NCBI GenBank assembly: GCA_027579435.1 | Contig: JANBPK010000776.1 | Coordinates: 1 to 64,000 of the forward strand | Source of the DNA: Candolleomyces eurysporus | Taxonomy: Eukaryota > Basidiomycota > Agaricomycetes > Agaricales > Psathyrellaceae | Length of the DNA: 64,000 bases | Direction: 5' to 3' | In this document: in pieces, positions 12,574-15,500 of the stretch | Position numbering within the stretch: position 1 is the stretch's first letter | How the letters are laid out: every line of letters begins with the position of its first letter | Notes under the pieces: model-generated | Seen by the model: only the letters and a program-made list of their open reading frames with translations | What the model was told of the DNA's origin: nothing | The model's database searches: none | Made by a program: the position numbers and the translations under genes

Positions 12574-15500
12574 ATGGCAGATTCCCCTGATCATTCAGCG
12601 GGACCACCCGACTCGGACCCCCCCCCAAGATGTTATACAAGTCAATTGGTCATTCCTGCAACGAAATAGTCCAGCCGAATGTGTGGAGATATCACGCTCT
12701 CAATTCACCAAGCCCATAGCCAACCTTCGCAAGTTGTTCGCCCGAGAGCTTCTTGAGAAGCTCGAATTCGAGGCAAAAACGTCTAACACGATGAAATTCT
12801 TCAAGGTGAATCTCCTCCCCTATGGCTTTGCTCTACGCCTTTTGACTATTCTATCTACAGCCTCAACGAATCACCGTGCTAGAAAACTTCGAAGCCGAGT
12901 TTACTTGGACTGGGAAGGAATTAACAGGGCTTGCCCCGCTCAAATCGCTGGCGTTCTACATTTCCGAAATTGTTAAAGATGAAGATGTTATTCATCTCGT
13001 TGTCAGCGCTGAACCTGCAGGCACTCATCCCAGCGACGATGCTCCCACTGAGCTTCCTGACCTTGGACGTAAGTTTTTCTCCACTCAGGTATACCAGAAT
13101 CCTCAAAAATTTCAGGGTTGAGCATCACCGAGTCGCTATCGGCTGCTGAGCTCGATATTATCAAGACGAAAGAGCCATTATACGGCTTGATTCCCAATAA
13201 GGTACCAGGGAGTCGTGTTAGGTTGGCATTGGTGAGTTATGAGTCCCTTAAGTCGAGTTCAGTCATCCACAAGTGACGAGCGCCATAGGAAAGGGATGTG
13301 AATCCGTTCACAAAGAAACCTTATACCGTGCAGTACAAGAAGATCCTTGAAACGAGGAAGAAGCTACCTGTCTACGCGGAGATGGACCAGTTCCTGAATA
13401 TCTTTGGTGAAAACCAGCTTATCATTCTGTTTGGCGAGACGGGGGCGGGGAAGACGACACAGATACCCCAATTCGTCGCTTTCTCAGATCTGCCTCATAC
13501 GAGGGGTAAGATGATTGCGTGTACTCAACCAAGGCGAGTGGCAGCCATGTCCGCCGCGAGACGCGTCGCAGAGGAGATGGACGGTGCGTGTCGTCTTTTC
13601 CATACATCCATCAACCCGTAACCTTCTCCCAGTGGAGCTCGGTCACCATGTCGGCTACTCTATTCGATTCGAAGACATGACTGATCCGGAGACGACATTC
13701 CTGAAATACATGACCGACGGTACGCAGGACCCCTGAAAACCTAGGGCAAGGCCTCCCCCATGTTCCGGACAAAATTGGGGACCCGGCCGCTAGGCCGGGG
13801 TCAAAAACCGGACAAAAACTGAGGAAATTGGCCTCTGAGGCCGGGTTTTTTGCCGGACAAACAAGGCCAAGAGGTGGGCTAATGGGCCTGAGGGCGCGAA
13901 GCGCCTGAAAAATTTGCCTTTATAGGAAGGGCGGAAGCGGGCTTGGCGCTTTTTTGCGTTCGAGGCCGGGGTTTTTTCCGGACAAAATTTGGGGGCGAGC
14001 GAAAAATCGTCCGGACACCAAACCTCAAAGTCGGCCCCGGCCTCCACCTAGGTTTTCAGGGGTCCTCGGTACGCTACTCCGCGAAGCGATGAACGACCCA
14101 GATTTCAGCCGATATAGCACTATCATCCTTGACGAAGTACACGAACGTACCGTTGCTACCGACATCCTCATGGGATTGCTGAAGAAAGTCGTCAAGAGGC
14201 GTCCAGACCTCAAAGTGGTTGTTATGTCGGCTACTTTAGATGCCCTCAAATTCCAAAAATACTTTAGCGTACGTTCGAATTGGCCTGCTCCACTCTTCAA
14301 AATTCAAGGACGTACGCATGAAGTGGAGGTGTTCTACACACAGGAACCCGAGCCTGATACCTCGGGGCGGCAATACAAACGGTTTTGATGATCCACCGTG
14401 CTGAAGGGCCGGGCGACATCCTGTTATTCCTCACAGGGGAAGAAGAGATTGAAGACGCATGTCTAAAAATCAAGTTGGAGGCGGACAGTATGATGAGACA
14501 GGATCCGGGAGGCGTTGGACCCCTCGTTTGTATACCGCTATATTCTTCCCTGCCGACTACACTGCAGCACAGGATACTCGACCCACCGCCAGCGCCAACC
14601 CACCCTAATCGTCCCCCTGGTCGCAAAGTTGTCGTATCCACCAATATTGCGGAGACTTCACTTACTATCGATGGGATTGTTTATGTTGTTGACCCAGGCT
14701 TCTCAAAACAGAGGGTGTACAACCCCAGGATTCAGGTTGAGAGTTTGTTGGTCAGTCCGATCAGCAAGGCTAGCGCTCAGCAGAGGGCAGGGAGAGCTGG
14801 ACGTACGAGACCGGGCAAGTGCTTCAGGCTATATACCGAAAAGGACTTTGTCACCGAGCTGGACGAGCAAACGTGTCCTGAAATCTTGAAGAGTAACCTC
14901 GCGAATACGGTGTTGGAGTTGGTCAAGTTGGGTGTCAAGGTAAGTGGGTGTTTTCTCTCTTCGTCAGGATGCTAAGGATTCGCAGGACTTGGTTAGATTC
15001 GACTACGTAGACGCACCCGCACCTGAAACGTTGATGAGGGCATTAGTACTTCTGAATTATCTCGCCGCTCTTGACGACGAAGGCAATTTGACTCCACTAG
15101 GGAATATGATGGCTGATTTCCCTCTTAATCCTCAGGTTCGTTTCTTCCTTCTTCTTTCCTCGGTCTCTGATCTTAAATCATATTTTCTGTTCACAGCTAG
15201 CCAAGATGCTGATTGTGAGTCCCGAATTCGAGTGCAGTAACGAAATTTTGACAATTACTGCCATGATTTCGGGTGAGTGGAAGCCTTACCTTGAGACGCA
15301 CTCAGTGAGTGAATGATGCTAAAACCCTTTCCCTTCAGTGCCTAACATTTGGCTTCGACCTCCGGATCGACGTCGTGAAGCTGATGTCGCCAAAGCAAGG
15401 CTTACCGTTCCCGAGGGAGACCACTTAACCCTTTTGAACGTGTATAATGAGTATGCTCAGAGTGCGTCTTGTATCGTTTCTTCTTTTTGGTTTTTGCGTT

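Follow-up and report, generated by a model that had tools for sequence, protein, structure and literature searches.

Has a transposable element that landed in a coding exon of a fungal helicase gene become an intron of that gene? The question is raised by a short repeat-bounded element in a stretch of 64,000 nucleotides of Candolleomyces eurysporus (hereafter the window), located on contig C1057 of a genome of 65.9 Mb in 1296 contigs. The answer depends on the element and its family, on the state of the host gene, on the quality of the candidate splice sites that the insertion happened to create, and on how the deposited gene model was drawn.

Structure and classification of the element

The element interrupts the coding sequence with a perfect target site duplication (TSD) on either side of it, and carries perfect terminal inverted repeats (TIRs):

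13718..13725, unstranded: left TSD, CGGTACGC, holding the candidate 5' splice site GTACGC that starts at 13720
13726..14066, unstranded: MITE-like element of 341 bp, subfamily A
13726..13745, + strand: left TIR, AGGACCCCTGAAAACCTAGG, containing the stop codon that is reached on retention
14047..14066, - strand: right TIR, a perfect inverted copy, in which TTTTCAG ending at 14059 is the candidate 3' splice site
14067..14074, unstranded: right TSD, CGGTACGC, a perfect 8-bp repeat of the left TSD

The initial annotation had described a 341-bp element with 20-bp TIRs and 8-bp TSDs in a Prp43 helicase gene. Its coordinates were verified, the TIRs match at 20 of 20 bp, a second copy on contig C1262 is 97.4% identical, and the host is indeed a Prp43-type paralog. 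The element has the properties of a MITE: it has TIRs and a TSD of fixed length, and it is short, multicopy and devoid of a transposase, for which 341 bp is an insufficient length. A chance inverted repeat was ruled out by the further copies with TSDs of their own. When the element is retained, the host frame ends inside the left TIR (translation TDGTQDP*). The predicted RNA fold of 13718-14074 is more stable than that of all 100 shuffled sequences (z -5.8).

The element had also been called hAT-like. The 8-bp TSD fits this assignment but is the only character behind it, and according to the available text of one study Zisupton elements too generate TSDs of 8 bp (PMC12730594). The genome holds at least 35 hAT-dimer matches and at least 121 KDZ matches (rows counted by exon), and none of these lies, by coordinates, near an exact TIR match; the only such transposase-domain match that shares a contig with an exact TIR is about 25 kb away from it, on C1262. 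A genome search for an autonomous partner with the same TIR found none. A relative on C344 with a TIR-like end lies in the neighbourhood of an NPHP3_N/NACHT-type ORF.

The host gene and its paralogs

The genome harbours at least four Prp43-type copies: the window gene, a copy on C61 with an intact reading frame, a copy on C1067 that is interrupted by the contig end, and a copy on C704. Contig C506 probably holds the 3' part of the C1067 copy; the canonical Prp43 used in the dN/dS analysis and in the tree was pieced together from a 5' part on C1067 and a 3' part on C506 that leave a gap between them, and was taken as a single gene. The C704 copy (C704:10332-10610) has an in-frame TAG and is probably a pseudogene. 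Single N's were seen adjoining homopolymer runs, three on C506 (L018) and one on C704 (L057), which hints at uncertain homopolymer lengths. Two features define the window gene:

13131..16196, + strand: Prp43-type helicase paralog, delimited by DNA similarity to the C61 paralog and extending to the stop codon; seven other introns agree with the paralog
14357..14358, + strand: 1-nt deletion relative to the paralog, in the Asp codon before Tyr; the frame is lost downstream

Neither the deletion nor the further gene copies figured in the initial annotation. The insertion site is uninterrupted in the C61, C1067 and C704 copies, the three others that cover it. An ancestral intron at this position was rejected on this ground. 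Elsewhere in the gene, the intron at 15136-15196 (DPQ/LAK) is present in the window copy and C61 and is missing from C506, and was thus either gained or lost within the paralog group.

A tree of 11 proteins places the window copy with the C61 copy and a C. aberdarensis protein (support 98/94), and outside that pair (100/100), so that the duplication seems to be older than the split between C. eurysporus and C. aberdarensis. The window copy has the longest end branch of the tree (0.20). By plain identity its closest tree row is the pieced canonical copy (85%, 552 columns), and the other Candolleomyces rows among the best 120 of 8000 scored proteins were P0003 (84%) and P0005 (82%). Between the window gene and C61 dS is 0.48, dN 0.095 and dN/dS 0.20 (727 codons), which indicates that constraint acted on the window gene during most of its existence. 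Compared to the canonical copy, dN/dS is 0.054 for the window gene (552 codons) and 0.063 for C61 (551 codons), at dS values above 1. At codons where C61 equals the canonical copy, 33.5 non-synonymous and 56.5 synonymous changes fall on the window branch, and the converse codons give 20 and 29 on the C61 branch; the window branch is thus not clearly more relaxed.

The insertion itself is far more recent. Over 342 columns, 8 substitutions and 1 gap separate the element from its closest copy, C1262:50252-50593 (97.4% identity over 345 columns). Set beside the dS of 0.48 for the gene copies, this places the insertion long after the duplication. That it is young, as had been proposed, is borne out by this 97% match and by the three Prp43 copies without the element.

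Some of the motif residues checked are unchanged, and the other exons keep an open frame. GETGSGKT has become GETGAGKT, DEAH has become DEVH (both of which we take to be conserved helicase motifs) and TDGM has become TDGT. Since TDGT is encoded in both TSD copies, the last change predates the insertion. A Prp43 N-terminus was not found upstream of about 13090-13131, where the similarity begins abruptly, and the 5' end of the duplicate is therefore truncated or chimeric. An ORF across both helicase domains is interrupted in the assembly by the 1-nt deletion at 14357/14358, 291 nt past the end of the element, and as assembled the window paralog cannot yield a full helicase. The case turns on whether the gene truly lacks this base or the assembly is wrong here. 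One misassembled base could be enough to shift the frame; the deletion lies in the context CCTGATACC, which is not a homopolymer.

Quality of the candidate splice sites

The reading most favourable to an intron holds that splicing removes the element efficiently as a new intron, that the paralog is functional, and that the frameshift stems from an error in sequencing or assembly. It starts from a single candidate:

13720..14059, + strand: candidate intron of 340 nt, GTACGC...TTTTCAG, the product of which (VLG) is present in the deposited protein H1R20_g4806

It had been proposed that the TSD provides the 5' splice site and the right TIR the 3' splice site, and this holds in the sequence: removal of 13720-14059 in silico preserves the frame and adds V-L-G. 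An in-frame intron can be outlined here because TTTTCAG is a constant part of the right TIR and the target offered, in suitable phase, a GT followed by G at +5. The further claim that the element already is an intron found no support, given the downstream frameshift, the C at donor position +6 and the length of the candidate.

These properties were compared with 20 introns drawn from three genes, namely the window gene, its C61 paralog and the canonical copy; many of these introns occupy homologous positions. Donor position +5 is G in 20 of 20 and in the element donor likewise; position +6 is T in 19 of the 19 readable introns, whereas the element donor has C. The compared introns measure 46-186 nt, against 340 nt for the candidate. 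A loose branch-site motif occurs once in the candidate (CTCAA at -36), though three of the seven other introns of the window gene match none.

How unusual such a fit is was estimated by placing the element at every coding position of the window gene in both orientations (within the exons, n=1550 placements ahead of the frameshift and n=2822 beyond it), the shares being computed once the site was known. An in-frame GT...TTTTCAG without a stop codon arose in 8.8% of the 1550 and 9.7% of the 2822 placements, in 6.1% and 6.4% with a G at +5 as well, and in 3.0% and 2.3% with G at +5 plus a purine at +3 (GTRNG...CAG). With 2-3% of simulated coding insertions yielding an in-frame GTRNG...CAG without a stop, the splice-site fit of the window insertion is somewhat unusual but not striking.

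Efficient splicing would draw on the in-frame GT...CAG with G at +5, on the 2-3% chance of so good a donor, on the same intron drawn in the deposited protein, and on a predicted 20-bp stem that would juxtapose both splice sites; the purifying selection (dN/dS 0.20) and the open exons elsewhere fit a functional paralog. The same stable predicted stem would, however, bury the 3' splice site (z -5.8), and the position of the deletion outside a homopolymer speaks against a frameshift born of error. With the deviating +6 base, the length beyond all 20 introns (at most 186 nt) and the sole branch-like motif added, we consider this reading unlikely.

A variant is that the element is removed in part or through cryptic sites, by alternative splicing that would give non-productive transcripts. 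The unusual donor and the long structured insert would favour such an outcome, as would a second AG (CCTAG) in the same TIR as TTTTCAG. As an account of the locus it appears improbable.

The deposited gene model

The best local alignment of the predicted product was to H1R20_g4806 of C. eurysporus (100% identity across 55% of the query). Its VLG junction shows that the deposited model counts the element as an intron already. Two further stretches bear on how this model was made:

12861..13068, + strand: upstream exon in the deposited protein; an intron at 13069-13115 comes after it
14269..14567, + strand: 299 nt of conserved helicase sequence missing from the deposited protein as if an intron, by which the frameshift is skipped

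The protein runs from FQKYFS straight into HRILDPPP, which equals removal of 14269-14567. No similarity to a Prp43 N-terminus was found in the upstream exon 12861-13068; its joining to the helicase in the deposited protein reflects either a chimeric gene or a prediction artefact. Since the model drops 299 nt of conserved helicase around the frameshift and begins in an upstream ORF, it looks ORF-driven, and the deposited intron across the element looks like what such a prediction would yield. The protein was rejected as proof of splicing, as it also lacks 14269-14567 and is fused to the upstream ORF. Gene models can draw introns across exon insertions and frameshifts, so annotation alone is not acceptable as evidence of intron gain, and the present case is a caution on annotated introns of this kind.

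The element family and the sites of its copies

Exact matches to the TIR number 15, on nine contigs, and the perfect TIRs all carry TTTTCAG. Matches with three mismatches number six, in line with the backward control (3 plus 5). The family comprises at least 11 loci (locus counts are lower bounds) in two subfamilies that are about 70% alike in their aligned parts. Subfamily A consists of the window element, the C1262 copy and an older copy on C1004 (80%). Subfamily B consists of copies on C326 (a relative with the same TIRs), C533 (two), C294, C1168, C907 and C1027, the last two of which may be the two sides of one copy. C546 has one family end only.

A perfect 8-bp TSD at a single copy was found for the window element, for C1262 (CCGGTGGC) and for C326 (CGACCGAC); none was seen at C533:31649, C294 or C1004, each taken alone. 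Four further 8-bp matches (GGCTGTTG, CGCAGAGG, GTTCCATA and TTCGTTCC) arise solely by pairing flanks from different copies, and involve the subfamily B copies on C533, C294, C1168, C907 and C1027. Such exchanged flanks suggest recombination, or chimeric assembly at repeats. The pairs GGCTGTTG, CGCAGAGG and GTTCCATA concern C533:31649-31990, C533:37401-37651, C294:4486-4827 and C1168:21771-22103. At C907:59865-60882 and C1027:201991-202889 there is a 797-bp stretch with outer end AGGACCCCCGACAACC and flank GGTAGCGG, apparently a related element lodged inside a subfamily B copy, the two sides lying on different contigs.

Seven sites with joined flanks (C1262, C326, C1004 and the four paired ones) were examined for a position in genes. 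By joined flanks and codon scores a coding position was shown at none of the seven. Frames of 130 residues (C1262) and 159 residues (the CGCAGAGG site) cross the joined sites, with codon scores of -0.048 and -0.066 in what is a weak test. No frame of 40 or more residues that spans any of the seven sites scores above 0, versus 0.03-0.06 for the window gene; the test is weak, as its training set consists partly of paralogs of the window gene, which itself scores just 0.03-0.06. A Pfam scan of a 100-residue piece of the CGCAGAGG-site frame gave no match. Among ten chosen ORFs near family sites, the domains matched were CDH-cyt and TrAA12, both near C1168, and, below threshold, Trypsin_2 near C546.

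The copy on C1168, outside the seven, could be intronic, a possible 3' splice site of the CDH-cyt/TrAA12-type gene being 44 bp away from its left end. This gene (C1168:21287-21775) starts directly beside the subfamily B copy, which could lie in a 5' intron or leader; no convincing candidate for a first exon was found beside the copy.

It had been suggested that the family may spread as ready-made introns, to be checked by searching for the TIR and for copies in coding sequence. The TIR search gave the 15 matches, and several copies that are each an intron in a gene did not emerge at the seven other joined sites. That the family is an introner multiplying through its TIR 3' splice site is highly improbable: the TTTTCAG-bearing TIR common to 15 matches on nine contigs and the copy abutting the 5' end of the CDH-cyt/TrAA12-type gene are set against just eleven loci and no coding position among seven.

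The most probable course of events

The locus is probably best explained as an ordinary recent MITE insertion in a decaying, redundant Prp43-type paralog, in which any splicing would be incidental. This reading builds on the observed TIRs and TSD, the related copies, the insertion-free gene copies and the frameshift in the assembly; the decay and the absence of efficient splicing are what we infer from them. On this view a 341-bp non-autonomous cut-and-paste DNA transposon of a small family recently entered an exon of a spare paralog, duplicating 8 bp of the target. The target by chance held a GT with G at +5 in phase, and the right TIR brought TTTTCAG. The paralog that bears the MITE is most likely in decay.

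Comparison with known systems

Removal of exonic transposons by splicing has long been known (Ds, Tc1, 412), and an exonic DNA transposon with an 8-bp duplication can provide splice sites from its ends together with the duplicated target. Giroux et al. reportedly demonstrated the splicing of a new intron formed by a maize Ds insertion. The window element resembles that case in being a transposon in an exon, with an 8-bp duplication and candidate splice sites from element end and target; it differs in that splicing is here read from sequence, and in that its hAT origin hangs on the TSD. In Caenorhabditis elegans a Tc1 element within an exon is said to have been removed from pre-mRNA by splicing, as shown in RNA by Rushforth and Anderson in 1996. 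The location within an exon is shared with the window element, whereas removal of the latter is a prediction.

TIR/TSD introners, for example in Symbiodinium, carry the 3' splice site in the element, and the TSD supplies the 5' one (Gozashti et al. 2022; PMC9860276). That study also describes codons added on splicing, and copy numbers ranging from 5 to over 2,000 in a genome (PMC9860276). The window element shares the geometry of splice-site recruitment and, if spliced as predicted, would share the added codons. Those families sit in genes as introns, whereas in the window family, with its eleven loci, a coding insertion has been shown once. Introner-like elements of Dothideomycetes are present as hundreds of near-identical intron copies, and the term 'inverted repeat' does not occur in the available text of their description (PMC4457414). 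They are new introns in fungi, as the window element may be; the window family, by contrast, has eleven loci and TIRs. Ascomycete introner families are reported to be without TIRs or TSDs, in a source whose main text, as available, holds no word starting with 'basidiomyc' (PMC9860276). A TIR-type introner case in a basidiomycete was not found in the open-licence introner literature as far as titles, abstracts and the available passages covered it.

That the locus captures a basidiomycete intron at its birth, the TIR giving the 3' site and the TSD the 5' site, and that it is spliced out cleanly in a Prp43 paralog still under constraint, seems rather unlikely from the sequence at hand. If true, a fungus would here have gained an intron of the TIR type, whereas the fungal introners described in the sources available lack TIRs and TSDs. 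If spliced, the element would constitute a very young, datable intron, with insertion-free gene copies in the same genome for comparison.
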